In this document: piece after piece, positions 8,972 through 16,250 of the stretch
Layout: each line of letters starts with the position of its first letter
How positions within the stretch are numbered: position 1 is the stretch's first letter
Notes under the pieces: generated by a model
Told to the model about the DNA's origin: nothing
The model's database searches: none
What the model saw: the letters and a program-made list of their open reading frames with translations, nothing else
Source: Oscillospiraceae bacterium
GTDB taxonomy: Bacteria > Bacillota > Clostridia > Oscillospirales > Oscillospiraceae
NCBI GenBank assembly: GCA_902783035.1
Contig: CACZPK010000054.1
Span: 1 to 38,524 of the forward strand
Direction of reading: 5' to 3'
DNA length: 38,524 nucleotides
Made by a program: the position numbers and the translations under genes

Positions 8972-10717
8972 ATGAAACAGTTGATGCTGGGCAACGCTGC
9001 CGCTGCGCGCGGGCTTTACGAAGCGGGCGTCGCCGTCGTATCCAGTTATCCCGGTACGCCGAGTACGGAGATCACGGAGGAACTCGCCAAATATGACGAG
9101 GTATACAGCGAGTGGGCGCCCAACGAGAAGGTTGCGATGGAGGTTGCCTTCGGCGCCAGCCTTGCGGGTAAGCGGAGCTTCTGCGGCATGAAGCATGTCG
9201 GCCTCAATGTCGCCGCCGACCCGCTGTTTACCGTTTCTTACACGGGCGTGAACGGCGGCATGGTCATTGCGGTGGCGGACGATGCGGGCATGCATTCCAG
9301 CCAGAACGAGCAGGATTCCCGCCATTACGCCCGCTCGGCCAAGCTGCCGATGCTGGAACCCGCAGACAGCGCGGAGGCGCTTGCCTTTGCCAAGCAGGCT
9401 TATGAGATATCGGAAACGTTTGATTGCCCGGTCCTGTTGAAGATGTGCACGCGCATCGCGCACTCCCAATCCGTTGTGGAGACGGGCGAGCGCGTCGAAC
9501 CGCAGGCAAAGCCCTATGAAAAGAATATCGCCAAGTACGTTATGACGCCTGCCAACGCCATTCGCCGTCATCCCCATGTTGACGAGCGCATGGAAAAGCT
9601 GGCGGCGTTCGCGGAGACGAGTGCGCTCAACCGTGTGGAGGAGGGGACGGATCATGCGACGGGCATCATCACGTCCTCCACGAGCTATCAATATGTGAAG
9701 GAAGTCTGCGGCGACCGTTTCCCGATCCTCAAGCTGGGTATGGTCTGGCCGCTGCCGGAGCAGAAGATCCGCGACTTTGCCGCCTCCGTCACCACACTGA
9801 CCGTGGTGGAGGAACTGGACGGCTTTATCGAGACCTATGTGCGCGAGCTTGGTATCCCCTGCGGAGGCAAGGCATTCTTCCCGCAGCTCGGCGAATTCTC
9901 ACAGAACCTTGTGGCGGAAAAGATCGGCTTGCCCGTCCACAAGGGCACGGCGCTGGATGAGACGATCCCGCCGCGCCCGCCTGCCATGTGCGCAGGTTGC
10001 CCGCACCGCGGCATGTTCTATACACTCAGCCGCAATAAATGCACGGTGCTCGGCGATATCGGCTGCTATACCCTCGGCGCCGCCGCACCGCTCAACGCCA
10101 TTGAAATGACGCTGTGCATGGGTGCGTCGGTGAGCAGTATCCACGGCTACAACAAGGCCCTCGGCACGCAGAGCGAGCATAAGACCGTTGCCGTTATCGG
10201 CGATTCGACCTTTATGCATTCCGGTATGACGGGACTTGCCAACATTGCTTACAACCAGTCGAACAGCACGGTCATCATTCTCGACAACTCCATCACCGGC
10301 ATGACAGGCCACCAGCAGAATCCGACCACGGGCTACAACATCAAGGGAGATCCCGCCGGCAAGATCGATCTGGAAGCATTGTGCCATGCGATGGGCTTCC
10401 GGCGCGTCCGCGTCGTCGATCCCTATGATCTCGACGCCTGCGATCAGGCGGTACGCGAGGAGCTGGCGGCAGATGAGCCGTCGGTCATCATTTCCCGCAG
10501 ACCCTGTGCGCTGCTGAAGTATGTCAAGCACAAGGCGCCGCTGCGCGTAGATCCGGACAAGTGCGTGGGCTGCAAGTCCTGCATGCGCATCGGCTGTCCG
10601 GCGCTTTCGTTCAAGGACGGCAAGGCGCGCGTCGATGCGACACTGTGTGTCGGCTGCGGCGTTTGCTCGCAGCTGTGCAAGGCCGGCGCGTTTGAGAGCA
10701 CCGCAAAGGAGGGATGA
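8972..10717 (+). CDS. iorA: Indolepyruvate:ferredoxin oxidoreductase, alpha subunit
   Basis: This 581-residue subunit carries the thiamine diphosphate chemistry that interconverts aryl pyruvates and aryl-acetyl-CoA with ferredoxin. The N-terminal pyrimidine-type domain begins with LGNAAAARGLYEAGV and SSYPGTPSTEI. The pyrophosphate-binding domain includes PAMCAGCPHRG and GDSTFMHSGMTGL. The C-terminus has two [4Fe-4S] ferredoxin motifs (CVGCKSCMRIGCP and CVGCGVCSQLC). The ATG at 8972 is chosen because AAGGAGAG lies just upstream; the frame itself opens 16 codons earlier. The stop overlaps the possible first start of iorB. Confidence 0.95.
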   Translation: MKQLMLGNAAAARGLYEAGVAVVSSYPGTPSTEITEELAKYDEVYSEWAPNEKVAMEVAFGASLAGKRSFCGMKHVGLNVAADPLFTVSYTGVNGGMVIAVADDAGMHSSQNEQDSRHYARSAKLPMLEPADSAEALAFAKQAYEISETFDCPVLLKMCTRIAHSQSVVETGERVEPQAKPYEKNIAKYVMTPANAIRRHPHVDERMEKLAAFAETSALNRVEEGTDHATGIITSSTSYQYVKEVCGDRFPILKLGMVWPLPEQKIRDFAASVTTLTVVEELDGFIETYVRELGIPCGGKAFFPQLGEFSQNLVAEKIGLPVHKGTALDETIPPRPPAMCAGCPHRGMFYTLSRNKCTVLGDIGCYTLGAAAPLNAIEMTLCMGASVSSIHGYNKALGTQSEHKTVAVIGDSTFMHSGMTGLANIAYNQSNSTVIILDNSITGMTGHQQNPTTGYNIKGDPAGKIDLEALCHAMGFRRVRVVDPYDLDACDQAVREELAADEPSVIISRRPCALLKYVKHKAPLRVDPDKCVGCKSCMRIGCPALSFKDGKARVDATLCVGCGVCSQLCKAGAFESTAKEG

Positions 10718-10722
10718 CCGGT

Positions 10723-11295
10723 ATGGAAACGAAGAATATCATGATCGTCGGCGTCGGCGGGCAGGGCAGCCTGCTGGCCAGCAAGCTGCTGGGCCACCTC
10801 CTGCTGGAGCAGGGCTACGACGTCAAGGTCTCCGAGGTGCACGGCATGAGCCAGCGAGGCGGCAGCGTCGTGACCTACGTGCGCTACGGCGACAAGGTCG
10901 CCTCTCCGGTGATCGACAAGGGCGAGGCAGACTACATTGTTTCCTTTGAACTGCTGGAAGCGGCACGCTGGATGGAATACCTCAAGCCCGGCGGGCAGAT
11001 CGTTACCTCGACGCAGCAGATCGACCCGATGCCCGTCATCACGGGCGCGGCGACGTACCCGGAGAACCTTGTGGAAAAAATGCGCACGGCGGGTGCAAAG
11101 GTCGACGCCCTAGACTGCCTTGCCCTTGCGGAGCAGGCGGGCAGCGTGAAGGCGGTCAACATTGTGCTGATGGGGCGGCTGTCGCACTATTTTGACCTCC
11201 CGGAGGAGGCGTGGCAGAAGTCGCTGGAGGCAATGGTGCCCGCAAAATTCCTGGAACTCAACCGCAAGGCGTTTGCGCTTGGCAAGAACGCCTGA
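10723..11295 (+). CDS. iorB: Indolepyruvate:ferredoxin oxidoreductase, beta subunit
   Basis: The 190-residue gamma-type domain partner of IorA begins KNIMIVGVGGQGSLLASKLLG, the glycine-rich start of 2-oxoacid oxidoreductase gamma domains, and has EVHGMSQRGGSVVTYVR, a typical motif of this subunit. An ATG at 10714 overlaps the iorA stop, but the AAAGGAGG at about 10705-10712 is far better spaced for the ATG at 10723. With IorA it forms a soluble oxygen-sensitive complex. No terminator directly follows; the next element is the promoter at 11361. Confidence 0.93.
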   Translation: METKNIMIVGVGGQGSLLASKLLGHLLLEQGYDVKVSEVHGMSQRGGSVVTYVRYGDKVASPVIDKGEADYIVSFELLEAARWMEYLKPGGQIVTSTQQIDPMPVITGAATYPENLVEKMRTAGAKVDALDCLALAEQAGSVKAVNIVLMGRLSHYFDLPEEAWQKSLEAMVPAKFLELNRKAFALGKNA

Positions 11296-11360
11296 CCGGA
11301 AGTGGTCAAAACGCACGGAAACAGCTCAATATATTGTTGCCGTTTTAGCTAAGAAGTATA

Positions 11361-11389
11361 TTGACTTTAACGCGTTAACACGCTATACT
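11361..11389 (+). promoter_or_regulatory. Strong promoter of the Phe leader transcript
   Basis: TTGACT (11361-11366) and TATACT (11384-11389) are separated by exactly 17 bp. The spacer holds the perfect 12-bp palindrome TTAACGCGTTAA (candidate operator at 11366-11379). Transcription would begin near 11396, about 20 nt before the leader peptide ATG. Confidence 0.8.
11366..11379. promoter_or_regulatory. Candidate operator, copy 2 (TTTAACGCGTTAAC)
   Basis: The site sits between -35 and -10, so a bound protein would block RNA polymerase. It contains a perfect 12-bp palindrome and shares the TTTAAYGCRTTAAA pattern with sites at 8783-8796 and 16224-16237. Confidence 0.45.
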
Positions 11390-11416
11390 GCCAAAAAACG
11401 GGAAAGGGGTACGGCA

Positions 11417-11506
11417 ATGAACAAGCTGAGCAATCGGTTTTTCGGCTTTAGCAGCGGCTTTTTCTTTGGCCGCTTTTTCGCCATGCCGCAAACCGACTGC
11501 CCGTGA
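11417..11506 (+). CDS. Phenylalanine-rich leader peptide (29 residues)
   Basis: A 30-codon frame starts at an ATG preceded by GGAAAGGGG. It encodes a 29-residue peptide with eight Phe codons, arranged FF, F, FFF and FF within residues 8-21. No globular function is expected. Its position between a strong promoter and a strong terminator, ahead of phenylacetate-CoA ligase, is that of an attenuation leader such as PheL. The codon run lies inside a long potential stem: TCGGTTT (11434-11440) and CGGC (11443-11446) can pair with GCCG (11485-11488) and AAACCGA (11490-11496). A stalled ribosome would prevent that pairing. The TGA at 11504-11506 lies 3 nt before the 5' arm of the proposed antiterminator. 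Confidence 0.75.
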   Translation: MNKLSNRFFGFSSGFFFGRFFAMPQTDCP

Positions 11507-11509
11507 GAA

Positions 11510-11580
11510 GAGCGCGTACCGTTGAACGCATCCGTTCAGACGCGGTCTCGTCCTTGTGGGCGGGACCGCGTTTTTGTTTT
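11510..11580 (+). terminator. Attenuator: alternative antiterminator and terminator helices
   Basis: The terminator is a 13-14 bp stem (11540-11553 with 11558-11571, loop TTGT, two G-T wobbles) followed by TTTTGTTTTG. The competing antiterminator pairs GAGCGCGT (11510-11517) with ACGCG and CTC (11540-11549, GT bulged) and encloses a perfect hairpin TGAACG-CATC-CGTTCA (11523-11538). Both cannot form together because they share 11540-11549. A ribosome finishing the leader at 11506 would cover 11510-11517 and favour termination. Confidence 0.75.
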
Positions 11581-11590
11581 GCCTTTTGTT

Positions 11591-11660
11591 TTTTCGCGGT
11601 GGCGCCGCCGCGGAAAAATAGAAAGATACTATAGCTATTTCCAAAGCACTATGTTATAAT
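11591..11660 (+). promoter_or_regulatory. Imperfect palindrome and extended -10 promoter before paaK
   Basis: An imperfect 27-bp palindrome (11591-11617, arms TTTTCGCGGTGGC and GCCGCCGCGGAAAA) is followed by an extended -10 element, TGTTATAAT (11652-11660), with no good -35. A transcript from it would start about 18 nt before paaK and bypass the attenuator. Activity is inferred from the -10 only. Confidence 0.4.
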
Positions 11661-11684
11661 CAAAAAAAGAGAGGAATGATCCGC

Positions 11685-12986
11685 ATGGAGCGCTATTACC
11701 AGCCCGAGATCGAAACCGCGTCCCGCGAGCAGATCACCGCATGGCAGAGCGAACGGCTTGTTCGACAGGTCAGGCACGTTTGGGACAACGTACCCTGCTA
11801 CCGCAAGAAAATGGAGGAGAAGGGCATTACGCCCGACGATATCCACGGCGTTGAGGATCTGCACAAGCTCCCCTTCGTCACAAAGGCGGATCTGCGTGAC
11901 CAGTATCCCTACGGCTTGCTTGCCGTTCCGCTGAACGACTGCGTACGCATTCACTCCACTTCCGGCACGACGGGCAAGCGCGTCGTTGCGTACTATACGC
12001 AGGAAGACGTTGACCTGTGGGAGGATTGCTGCGCCCGCGCGCTGACCGCCGCGGGGGCAACGGAAGAAGACGTGTGCCAGGTCGCATACGGCTACGGCTT
12101 GTTTACCGGCGGCGCCGGACTGCACGGCGGCAGCCACAAGGTCGGCTGCCTGACGCTGCCGATGTCCTCCGGCAACACCGAACGTCAGATCATGTTTATG
12201 CGCGACCTGAAGTCGACCATCTTGTGCTGCACGCCCTCATATGCCGCCTATTTGGGCGAGACGATGAAGGAGATGGGGCTCACACCCGACGAGATTCCGC
12301 TCAAGGCGGGCATCTTCGGCGCAGAGGCGTGGAGCGAGGAGATGCGCCGGGATATTGAGAAAACGCTGGGTATCAAGGCGTATGACATCTATGGGCTTAC
12401 GGAGCTTTCCGGCCCCGGCGTTGCCTTTGAGTGCTCTGCGCAAAACGGCATGCACATCAATGAGGACCACTTCATCGCGGAGATCATCGACCCGGAGACG
12501 GGTGAGCCGCTGCCCGACGGAGAACAGGGCGAGCTGGTCTTTACCTCCCTTACCAAAAAGGCGTTCCCGCTCCTGCGCTACCGCACCCGCGACGTTTGCG
12601 TGCTCAACCGCGGAAAGTGTTCCTGCGGCCGTACGCACGTCAGAATGGCGAAACCGCGCGGCCGTACGGACGATATGCTCATCATCCGCGGCGTGAACGT
12701 GTTCCCGTCCCAGATAGAAACGGTTCTGATCAACCTCGGCTACGGCGCGAACTATCAAATCATTGTCGACCGCGTCAACCACACCGATACGCTCGATGTG
12801 CATGTGGAAATGACGCCGGAGATGTTTACCGACAATATGGGCGAGATCGCCGCGCGGCAGAAGAAGATCGTCGAAGGGCTGCGCTCTATGCTCGGCCTTG
12901 CTGCGAAGGTCACACTGGTTGCACCGAAGTCCATCGTACGCAGCGAGGGCAAAGCGGTGCGCGTGATCGACAACCGCAAAATTTGA
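11685..12986 (+). CDS. paaK: Phenylacetate-CoA ligase
   Basis: The 433-residue protein has the hallmarks of AMP-forming phenylacetate-CoA ligases: an N-terminal SERLVRQVRHVWDNVPCYR helix region, the P-loop STSGTTGKR at 91-99, YDIYGLTELSGPG in the middle and RGRTDDMLIIRGVNVFPSQIE at the C-domain hinge. It converts phenylacetate or related aryl acids, CoA and ATP to aryl-acetyl-CoA. The ATG at 11685 is preferred over that at 11676 because AGAGAGG ends 10 nt before it. It sits downstream of iorAB and of the Phe attenuator, and 16 nt before the ACT-domain gene, an arrangement frequent in anaerobic Firmicutes and archaea. Confidence 0.93.
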   Translation: MERYYQPEIETASREQITAWQSERLVRQVRHVWDNVPCYRKKMEEKGITPDDIHGVEDLHKLPFVTKADLRDQYPYGLLAVPLNDCVRIHSTSGTTGKRVVAYYTQEDVDLWEDCCARALTAAGATEEDVCQVAYGYGLFTGGAGLHGGSHKVGCLTLPMSSGNTERQIMFMRDLKSTILCCTPSYAAYLGETMKEMGLTPDEIPLKAGIFGAEAWSEEMRRDIEKTLGIKAYDIYGLTELSGPGVAFECSAQNGMHINEDHFIAEIIDPETGEPLPDGEQGELVFTSLTKKAFPLLRYRTRDVCVLNRGKCSCGRTHVRMAKPRGRTDDMLIIRGVNVFPSQIETVLINLGYGANYQIIVDRVNHTDTLDVHVEMTPEMFTDNMGEIAARQKKIVEGLRSMLGLAAKVTLVAPKSIVRSEGKAVRVIDNRKI

Positions 12987-13002
12987 GAAAGGGGAGAGCG
13001 AT

Positions 13003-13434
13003 ATGAGCGTTAAGCAGATTTCCGTATTTCTCGAAAACAAGCCCGGCGCGCTGCTGGGCATGACCCGCGTGCTGGCGGAGCAGAACATCGATATGCGTGC
13101 GTTCTCATTGGCTGAGACGAGCGATTTCGGCATTGCGCGCATCATCGTCAACGACGTGGCCAAGACCACGGCGGTTTTGCAGGAGGCGGGCTTTGTCCAC
13201 AATGTTACGCCCGTCATCGCCGTCGCCGTCTCCAACACACCCGGAGGACTGAACCGGGCGCTGACCGCCCTGAGCGAGGCGTCGGTCAACGTGGAGTATA
13301 TGTACGCCTTTGTCGGCGGGCGAGAGGAAAGCGCCTACATGATCTTCCGTGTGGCGGACAATGAAAAGGCTGCCGCAGCGCTGCACGCCGCCGGTATCCG
13401 GCTGGCCGAGCAAGAGGAGATCGCAACACTGTAA
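13003..13434 (+). CDS. Double ACT-domain protein
   Basis: The 143-residue protein consists of two ACT domains, about 5-66 (QISVFLENKPGALLGMTRVL) and 72-140 (AVAVSNTPGGLNRALTAL), each with the Gly-containing ligand loop after the first strand. ACT domains bind small ligands, usually amino acids. This type regularly accompanies paaK and is often annotated only as an amino-acid-binding protein. It may sense an aromatic amino acid and adjust PaaK or IorAB activity; that is inference. AAAGGGGAG precedes the ATG. Confidence 0.85.
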   Translation: MSVKQISVFLENKPGALLGMTRVLAEQNIDMRAFSLAETSDFGIARIIVNDVAKTTAVLQEAGFVHNVTPVIAVAVSNTPGGLNRALTALSEASVNVEYMYAFVGGREESAYMIFRVADNEKAAAALHAAGIRLAEQEEIATL

Positions 13435-13504
13435 CCCGTAAGATTTCGGGAGGCTTCTCGGATCTTGTAAGAAAACATTGGCTGAAAAGGAAAGGAGAAT
13501 TATC

Positions 13505-16221: not shown

Positions 16222-16250
16222 AGTTTAACGCATAAAATCATTAAAGTCAA
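16222..16250 (-). promoter_or_regulatory. Promoter of the symporter/amidohydrolase operon
   Basis: On the minus strand TTGACT (16245-16250) and TAAACT (16222-16227) are 17 bp apart, about 50 bp before the symporter start. The -10 and the adjoining spacer are covered by operator copy 3. Confidence 0.7.
16224..16237. promoter_or_regulatory. Candidate operator, copy 3 (TTTAACGCATAAAA)
   Basis: The site overlaps the -10 element of the symporter promoter. On the minus strand it reads TTTTATGCGTTAAA, one base different from copy 1. A longer shared frame is also visible: TTTAAC, ten bases, ATTAAAG, both here (16224-16246) and at 8775-8797. Confidence 0.45.

Follow-up and report, generated by a model that had tools for sequence, protein, structure and literature searches.

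A probable phenylalanine-codon attenuator in front of paaK in an Oscillospiraceae bacterium, and related leaders of other aromatic amino-acid genes

The paaK-like gene of an Oscillospiraceae bacterium is preceded by what is probably a ribosome-mediated transcription attenuator (we put the probability at roughly 0.8). It would read charged tRNA-Phe and control the distal genes, paaK-ACT, of the module iorAB-paaK-ACT; this gut bacterium appears to switch on a phenylalanine-making gene only when phenylalanine is short. The window, i.e. the whole stretch of DNA that was analysed, comprises 38,524 nucleotides. A sequence-only reading of it had proposed a Phe-codon leader peptide and an alternative terminator before paaK. 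That proposal held in comparative tests (all 8 paaK-bearing genomes of the genus, no T-box), except for the antiterminator arm that it named.

The leader and its conservation

The elements of the leader lie on the forward strand and agree with those first described, namely a consensus promoter, a 29-residue frame with eight Phe codons and a ribosome binding site, and a strong intrinsic terminator with a T-run. Promoter P1 (TTGACTTTAACGCGTTAACACGCTATACT, 11361-11389), found by promoter scan, reads TTGACT-17-TATACT (10 of 12 consensus letters) and overlaps a dyad found by promoter comparison, a putative operator at 11364-11389. Four promoter-like sites occur on the two strands of 10700-13500, against a shuffled mean of 0.9. 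A Shine-Dalgarno sequence, AAAGGGG (11403-11409, read directly), precedes an ORF of 29 codons (11417-11506) encoding MNKLSNRFFGFSSGFFFGRFFAMPQTDCP. Eight of its 29 residues are Phe, which is beyond chance (P = 1e-5 for at least 8 of 28, assuming a Phe frequency of 4%). The terminator has a predicted energy of -28.9 kcal/mol; its 5' arm (region 3, 11539-11553) and 3' arm (region 4, 11558-11572) recur across the genus, and T-rich sequence continues behind them as far as about 11580. Leader folds and alignments place a further hairpin inside the ORF, with its 5' strand (region 1) at 11453-11459 and its 3' strand (region 2) at 11468-11474, and the predicted fold of the leader as a whole (11393-11585) has a z score of -4.08.

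Transcription would start from P1, and a ribosome would enter the 29-codon ORF behind RNA polymerase. As long as tRNA-Phe is charged, this ribosome would read through, the terminator at 11539-11572 would form and transcription would stop. When it is uncharged, the ribosome would stall at the first Phe cluster (codons 8-11) and cover region 1. Phe8, Phe9 and Phe11 (11438-11449) are the putative control codons, on the basis of alignment and geometry. Region 2, thus freed, may then capture the 5' arm of the terminator, and the polymerase would continue into paaK; region 2 is able to pair with 11542-11547 and is the candidate antiterminator arm.

Within the genus, paaK is carried by 8 of 18 genomes, and in all eight the leader lies upstream: a short ORF with a Shine-Dalgarno sequence and Phe clusters, the ORF hairpin, and an intrinsic terminator between ORF and paaK. 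Both the Phe codon run and these two stems are kept in relatives, the kind of conservation that the first proposal had asked for, the stems with some compensatory changes; the antiterminator pairing of 11510-11517 was not supported in the same way (see below). In the alignment, all 9 paaK leaders have Phe at the positions of Phe9 and Phe11, and 7 of the 9 at that of Phe8. Three of 15 terminator pairs have changed on both sides among eight paaK leaders; in a wider set of 15 leaders the same holds for 7 of 15 terminator pairs and 4 of 7 ORF-hairpin pairs. Folding the paaK set gave a helix that joins the Shine-Dalgarno region to GCCAUGCC; the wider set did not have it in its consensus structure, and it was discarded. 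The pN/pS ratios of leader ORFs, which are confounded by RNA structure, are 0.64 (paaK), 0.73 (aroF) and 0.81 (ABC transporter) and weakly suggest purifying selection on the ORF, and hence its translation. The non-Phe residues of the peptide are likewise similar across the genus, largely where they coincide with RNA hairpin strands.

The combination of elements, too, exceeds chance. A mechanical rule asked for a Shine-Dalgarno sequence, an ORF of 10-45 codons in which Phe or Tyr number at least 5 and make up at least 18%, and a terminator 35-110 bases past the stop; it returned four ORFs in 783,647 bases per strand, covering the window and 80 relatives. Of these four, the window and L059 supply one paaK leader each, and the other two are L020 and L034. 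Leaders in which Phe falls short of 18%, L011 among them, escape the rule. For the comparisons in general, the 80 best of at least 595 loci were kept, and 80 were fetched from a second list of places.

Downstream of the terminator there is a possible second promoter, P2, with an extended -10 element (TGTTATAAT, 11652-11660, forward strand, by eye). Since a P2-like element lies past the terminator in 6 of 8 genus loci, a leader-independent transcript of paaK may exist. P1, ORF and terminator might then form an independent small gene for a micropeptide or sRNA, with paaK driven by P2 only, a reading with which the similarity of the non-Phe residues also agrees. We regard it as very unlikely: that similarity lies largely on hairpin strands, L004 and L009 have no P2, and the position of leaders before aromatic genes, with aromatic residues that vary with the gene, does not follow from a function shared by the peptides.

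A second GC-rich hairpin, flanked by a T-run on its 5' side and an A-run on its 3' side, is found at 11589-11618, where Rfam matches are at noise level; similar hairpins stand behind the terminators of L208, L209 and L210 (by eye). In the 'AMD' leaders L059, L086 and L133 the sequences GCGATGGAT and ATCCACCGC are invariant. A search of 394 genomes of the order for this motif gave no match, a search without a positive control because G123, the source of L133, was not among the rows listed.

Candidate antiterminators

The antiterminator arm first named, 11510-11517 (forward strand), can pair with 11540-11549 through 5 + 3 pairs with a bulge, but 165 of 1000 shuffles did as well, swapped arms gave p 0.07, and a scan of windows along the paaK leaders gave no signal after the stop (+3, n=8, z -0.40; +8, n=7, z -0.31). 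An attenuator that works through this segment, covered by a ribosome at the stop codon, is the less attractive form of the model, and we consider it unlikely. With the ribosome placed at the stop instead of at the last Phe codon, predicted arm pairing fell in 8 of 11 leaders and was equal or higher in the other three (L009, L086, L133); a shorter free segment is expected to account for part of the fall. Long complementarity occurs in L003 and L006 (16 and 51 of 1000 shuffles as good), and GAG/CUC in L001 against GAA/UUC in L008 appears compensatory by eye; in 6 of the 8 genus leaders, on the other hand, 165-992 of 1000 shuffles were as good.

In the same scan, the terminator 5' arm found its best partner 42 nt ahead of the stop codon in the paaK leaders (z -1.99) and again in the aroF leaders (z -1.81), with no peak at this position in the ABC set (z -0.82). 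Each leader's own region 2 also paired better with its arm than with swapped arms in the paaK set (p 0.017), but not in the aroF set (0.996), the ABC set (0.977) or all 35 leaders (0.92); for L258 the script chose another hairpin. The 35-leader set omits the near-identical L215, L214/L269 and L219, as well as L265 (ORF by eye only), L278 and L304-L306 (later or from elsewhere). Since the swap test fails for aroF, ABC and the whole set, the 3' strand of the ORF hairpin was rejected as a general antiterminator of all classes. With a stalled ribosome, predicted pairing between region 2 and the arm averages 2.0 nt in paaK, 1.8 in aroF and 3.9 in ABC leaders. In 32 of 32 paaK, aroF and ABC leaders, under a tolerance that we set ourselves, an aromatic codon sits where stalling would put region 1, but not region 2, under the ribosome. 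Pairing is stronger still for a stop-proximal window of the aroF set (z -2.32), whose partner is the 3' arm of the terminator, a pairing that the proposed model does not use. The classical arrangement, through the hairpin inside the ORF, thus seems to fit better than the post-stop arm and is the better, though unproven, candidate; no antiterminator is established for these leaders.

Related leaders and a shared promoter dyad

A covariance model built from paaK leaders alone, R1, matched two further leaders in the bacterium's own genome (E 4e-30 and 5e-29). Under this model the leaders of paaK, of a YkvI-like transporter gene and of one ABC transporter score 102-105 bits, and their common descent is well supported. 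R1 scores aroF leaders like bare terminators (38.6 versus 38.2 bits), so the case for their common descent with these three is weaker; it is suggested by the second model and the shared promoter.

A census was restricted to this second model, R2, at E<=1e-7, a cut chosen after the R1 results, because R1 matches below about 40 bits included bare terminators, on both strands. R2 found 31 places in 29 of 300 genomes of the family. Ten are rows of its own alignment and match by construction; 21 lie outside it, some of them near-identical to R2 rows (e.g. G104 to G174, G197 to G134). At all 31 places an aromatic-rich ORF (that of L265 by eye) precedes an aromatic amino-acid gene: aroF-tyrA in 16 cases, a TrpX-like ABC transporter in 10, paaK in 4 and a YkvI-like transporter in one. 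The census is a lower bound, because the leader of G010 escaped R2 and was found through its promoter. In another family 3 of 3 places likewise have an aromatic-rich ORF (the third by eye) before aromatic amino-acid genes. A leader with Phe/Trp codons precedes a TrpB-like-paaK-ACT operon.

The codons of the leaders match their targets, with Phe for paaK, Tyr for aroF-tyrA and mixtures for the transporters. Phe codons number 4-8 in 9 paaK leaders and 0-3 in 14 aroF leaders; Tyr codons number 0-2 and 4-8, respectively (p ~6e-5 for each comparison, between species that are not independent). We suggest, at odds only a little better than even, that these leaders go back to a single ancestral cassette. 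Copies of it would have spread inside genomes and from one genome to another among Oscillospiraceae and their relatives, and changes of the control codons would have given them new targets; most of them would sit on top of a common repressor operator, which would make a regulon of two levels for aromatic amino acids. The control codons would be Phe in front of paaK, Tyr in front of aroF-tyrA, Phe/Tyr for an ABC transporter, Phe/Tyr/Trp for the YkvI-like gene and Phe/Trp for TrpB-like-paaK. If true, this change of target would be the leader-peptide counterpart of specifier switching in T-boxes.

The dyad of P1 suggests that the shared promoter is also a repressor site. Across 33 leader promoters, four spacer pairs are complementary in 51.5% of cells, against 26% after shuffling. 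Promoter comparison places a P1-like promoter without a leader before the neighbouring Na+/solute symporter gene (16222-16250, reverse strand); P1-type sites stand before similar symporters in G007 and G016 (likeness by eye), and leaderless P1-type promoters before the ABC transporter in G004, G008 and G017. Of the 18 genus genomes, 17 have TrpR-family genes; among 169 fetched loci, such genes lie close to ior or paaK in 18. All this would agree with control mainly by a repressor at the dyad, e.g. a TrpR-family protein, with the attenuator secondary or decaying. Such a balance is unlikely, given that ORF and terminator are kept in 8/8 genus paaK leaders and that the three leaders of the other family have no P1-type promoter (by eye). 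Moreover, both layers are able to coexist, as repressor and attenuator do in the trp operon of E. coli.

The paaK module, T-boxes and known attenuators

The module reads in the forward direction. iorA (8972-10717, start by eye), for the alpha subunit of indolepyruvate ferredoxin oxidoreductase, scores 713.4 bits against TIGR03336, above the cut-off, and is followed by iorB (10714-11295, profile match). No leader was seen upstream of iorA in the window. The paaK-like phenylacetate-CoA ligase gene (11685-12986, start inferred from relatives; listed ORF start 11676) scores 531.8 bits against TIGR02155, under the equivalog cut-off of 646.3, and an ACT-domain protein follows (13003-13434, match to ACT_8). 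Most likely the module makes phenylalanine from phenylacetate: PaaK would convert phenylacetate to phenylacetyl-CoA, Ior running in reverse would yield phenylpyruvate, and transamination would give phenylalanine. The direction of ior-paaK is not settled by sequence alone. The leaders are regulatory evidence for synthesis of phenylalanine from phenylacetate by ior-paaK modules, as opposed to degradation. Devices of this kind stand at genes for supply or use of aromatic amino acids: leaders before aroF-tyrA, the TrpX-like ABC transporter and TrpB-like-paaK-ACT, and UUC T-boxes on paaK or iorA in relatives. For Bacteroides, enzyme assays suggest the synthesis direction (PMC13285125), and synthesis of phenylalanine from phenylacetic acid in rumen bacteria is mentioned in PMC7356843, citing Allison 1965. 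Prephenate dehydratase is present in 3 of 8 genus genomes with paaK (including the window's own) versus 7 of 10 without it, a distribution that is suggestive only, several of the 18 genomes being incomplete. The enzyme's presence in those three genomes counts against the proposed role of the module, as does the score of PaaK under its cut-off. At 11 genus prephenate dehydratase loci no Phe-rich short ORF was like the leader by eye (four listed; L174, L177).

For control of their amino-acid genes, Firmicutes are best known to use T-boxes, and the enterobacterial Phe attenuator has its own Rfam family, Phe_leader. The Rfam scan of the window gave nothing at gathering. With the threshold loosened to E 10, seven matches appeared between 11200 and 11800; even the best of them, at E 0.12, was far under gathering, as were the other six. 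None was a T-box, which bears out the original non-T-box reading, and none was Phe_leader. The sequence GGGACCGCG in the terminator 3' arm merely resembles a T-box motif; RF00230 was not matched. In relatives, a T-box precedes paaK or iorA at no fewer than 15 loci, 13 of them above the Rfam gathering score, with UUC at the specifier position in 14 of 15 (by eye); the 15 are a lower bound because a sequence pattern preselected the loci for Rfam. Control of paaK in the window by a T-box or another known riboswitch, for which these relatives might speak, is nevertheless extremely improbable in view of the Rfam result, and the six T-box matches in the bacterium's own genome are all on contigs other than that of paaK. 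The 15 T-box loci of relatives contradict the suggestion that Phe control on paaK would be unusual. What is unusual is the leader device, together with similar leaders carrying other aromatic codons before other aromatic genes.

Phe attenuators are known from E. coli in pheL (of pheA) and pheM (of pheST). The leader resembles them in its Phe-codon ORF, its intrinsic terminator and the proposed read-out of charged tRNA-Phe; it differs in phylum, in its paaK target, in having no Rfam match and in having relatives with other aromatic codons. Attenuation of pheA and pheST is also stated in PMC11802643, which describes the aroR leader of aroF in C. glutamicum (Neshat 2014), with Phe-Tyr-Phe codons. 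That actinobacterial leader, too, is an aromatic-codon leader before a DAHP synthase gene, whereas the aroF leaders here have 4-8 Tyr and 0-3 Phe, and similar leaders are also found on paaK, transporter and TrpB-like genes. The uORFC-13-1 motif upstream of Acholeplasma aroF, known from Acholeplasma and environmental DNA, is alike in layout as described in PMC8632094: a uORF with a promoter, a Phe codon and a terminator behind. His leader-peptide attenuators predicted in some Firmicutes lineages (PMC9413887) also came to light through comparative work and occur alongside control of the same genes by T-boxes and the TrpR-family protein HisR, but have His codons, serve his operons and occur in other lineages. 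Among the papers listed by full-text searches of the open-licence literature, none dealt with the present leaders, as judged by titles and the beginnings of abstracts.

The leader-peptide set serves aromatic amino-acid genes in gut bacteria. The Phe T-boxes of relatives, and the T-box preceding trpX in S. suis (PMC9382623), share with it their targets (ior-paaK and a TrpX-type transporter, respectively) and the signal of charged tRNA. In T-boxes, unlike in the present leaders, the tRNA binds the RNA directly, without a leader ORF. The ior-paaK genes come under one device or the other and allow the two to be compared. As the specificity of a leader is readable from its codons, the predictions made here can be tested by codon swaps.

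The leader between iorB and paaK

The 389-base gap between iorB, which ends at 11295, and the paaK-like gene (ATG at 11685) contains a promoter (P1, 11361-11389), an SD sequence, an ORF of 29 codons, eight of them Phe (11417-11506), and a terminator with a 15-pair stem and a T-rich tail (11539-11580). Rfam gave no match at gathering in the whole window, and the 7 matches found between 11200 and 11800 up to E 10 were all far under gathering (best E 0.12). The gene order of the module is iorA, iorB, paaK, ACT protein. As the PaaK protein scores 531.8 bits against TIGR02155, under the model's cut-off of 646.3, its name is based on similarity and context.

When 18 genomes of the genus were searched for PaaK (E<=1e-60), the gene was found in 8, and all 8 have kept the leader (L011, the same record as L005, was left out of the count). 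The leader ORFs comprise 29-35 codons, with the start chosen by us, and have FSFTSGYFFSRFFAMP in common, with variations. In the consensus fold of the paaK-leader alignment, the terminator is accompanied by a hairpin within the ORF and by a helix close to the SD. Of the 39 pairs of this fold, 6 are changed on both sides, three each in the terminator and the SD helix. A mechanical leader rule applied to each strand of 783,647 bases returned four ORFs, of which those of the window and of L059 are paaK leaders.

The hairpin within the ORF is present in 35/35 collected leaders. In all 32 leaders of the three main classes, and likewise in the remaining three, an aromatic codon is placed such that a ribosome stalled on it would mask the 5' strand of the hairpin but leave its 3' strand free; given our own choice of ribosome-coverage limits and the large number of aromatic codons, this agreement is a consistency check only. 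In the paaK and aroF sets alike, the 5' arm of the terminator pairs best at window -42, i.e. with the 3' strand of the hairpin. At the outer pair of this helix, 2 of 8 members of the paaK set have C-G in place of U-A, a change of both partners, and arm swapping favours the helix in that set only. The window scan showed no -42 pairing peak in the ABC set, and in aroF leaders the stop-adjacent window pairs better with the 3' arm of the terminator (z -2.32). We therefore commit to a classical stall-and-release attenuator, to which we assign a probability of roughly 0.8, with the 3' strand of the ORF hairpin as no more than a candidate antiterminator.

Following the terminator there is a second GC-rich hairpin (11589-11618); by eye, similar ones follow the terminators of L208, L209 and L210. 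By eye, an extended -10 lies between terminator and paaK at 11652-11660 and in 5 other loci of the genus, possibly a promoter independent of the leader.

A wider family of leaders

A covariance model built from 8 paaK leaders was run on 300 genomes of the family, and gave two further matches in the window's own genome (105 and 102 bits). One leader, MVKLSNKFYGFFYGWWCSRPLSCPKSEP, precedes genes for a Dabb protein and for a transporter-like protein that has neither a Pfam nor an NCBIfam match and that we take to be YkvI-like; the other, MSPLANDKAFSFTYGYGYSRHFVMPDLEM, precedes an ABC transporter whose binding protein matches PF04392 and, under cut-off, the TrpX model. A second model built from 15 leaders (E<=1e-7) found 31 places in 29/300 genomes and 17/106 genera, 10 of the places being rows of the model itself. 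All 31 were inspected, 19 by tblastn; the others include the paaK loci of the own genome, G002 and G007, and for the remaining places the ORFs were read and Pfam was run on L208, L209 and L212. Downstream are DAHP synthase and then TyrA (16), an ABC transporter (10), paaK (4) or a YkvI-like gene (1). Every place has an aromatic-rich ORF, e.g. MALYFGYAYGYYRYYRSGYFACP before aroF-tyrA; among the 19 checked by tblastn it was found by script in 16, by a later scan in L257 and L264, and by eye in L265. G010 has a leader absent from this list.

A search of 388 genomes of the order gave matches in 11, 8 from this family and 3 from one genus of another family. The latter three leaders carry Phe/Trp codons (e.g. 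MKHERNNGFFGFINGFWFSRSFVVPGMEQ); two are followed by a TrpB-like gene (TIGR01415, above cut-off), paaK and ACT, and the third has a similar start by eye, its contig ending soon after. On the minus strand of L034, near position 88, a short Tyr-rich ORF, VKRSAYSYYYYCFAACKVHRPRL, is followed by a terminator and is possibly another leader of the same kind.

The codons of the leader follow the target gene. Phe codons number 4-8 in paaK leaders (n=9) and 0-3 in aroF leaders (n=14), whereas Tyr codons number 0-2 and 4-8, respectively; rank tests give about 6e-5 for each, values that are inflated because 8/9 paaK leaders come from one genus. ABC leaders (n=9) are mixed (Phe 1-6, Tyr 0-6), and both YkvI-like leaders have 3 Phe, 2 Tyr and 2 Trp codons. 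A Pro codon precedes the stop in 5/9 paaK, 12/14 aroF and 0/9 ABC leaders.

Control and function of the module in relatives

Regions upstream of paaK (165) and iorA (84) were scanned, some records being present twice (e.g. L017 and L095). Phe-containing candidates before paaK were found in the 8 genus members, L011, L059, L086, L133, L073 and L115; the last two were read as chance. The leader of L210 (G289) was missed by the scan and recovered by the covariance model. L059, L086 and L133 represent a separate, 'AMD' type. These distant Phe leaders upstream of paaK contain (S/T)AMD, and their invariant GCGATGGAT and ATCCACCGC are complementary apart from one mismatch; paaK may here have an independent Phe attenuator.

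Fifteen loci have a T-box before paaK or iorA, 13 of them above the Rfam gathering score (L087, at 92.1 bits, and L149, at 67.9, are under it). By eye, the specifier position reads UUC in 14/15, the exception being L149. Thus, T-boxes make the module in relatives responsive to tRNA, most likely tRNA-Phe.

Prephenate dehydratase gave no match in 5/8 paaK genomes, namely G007, with a completeness of 100%, and four others with 75-89%; both routes are present in the genome of the window. These absences, together with tRNA-based control by either device, favour phenylalanine synthesis from phenylacetate as the role of the module. Near a TrpB-like gene of the own genome, L186 (G000:C6:9810-10094, minus strand) is a T-box match under threshold (60 bits); T-box and leader peptide may thus serve aromatic genes side by side.

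A dyad in the promoter and TrpR-family genes

Promoters were compared for 33/35 leaders (L259 and L261 lie outside the stretch covered). All 33 contain TTGACTT, the first four letters being required by the search. The axis of a dyad, which covers 11364-11389 in the window, falls between bases 16 and 17 of the 29 compared: 64% of the cells of 10 pairs are complementary across the 33 promoters, against 9-31% with the axis shifted. The four spacer pairs are 51.5% complementary versus 26% in shuffles (0/2000 shuffles), and in five aroF promoters 9/10 dyad pairs are complementary. The dyad overlaps the promoter, is common to paaK, aroF, ABC and YkvI-like leaders, and looks like a repressor site.

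TrpR-family genes are present in 17/18 genus genomes. Relatives of one such protein occur in 18/169 paaK loci (L012, L013, L014, L015 and L017 among them; L017 and L095 are the same record). In 17/18 the gene is immediately upstream of iorA or paaK and in the same orientation; in L003 it is downstream on the other strand. We infer that the TrpR-family protein may bind the promoter dyad.

Allowing up to 2 mismatches, the site pattern was found at 23 places in 16/18 genus genomes, and the reversed pattern gave zero matches in the same 18. Some sites lack a leader: in G004, G008 and G017 they precede the same ABC transporter, in G007 and G016 a Na+/solute symporter (by eye); the matches in L287 and L288 seem unrelated. 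In the window, a P1-like promoter without leader (16250-16222, minus strand) belongs to a Na+/solute symporter adjoining the module; as a candidate member of the same regulon, it may transport phenylacetate or an aromatic compound.
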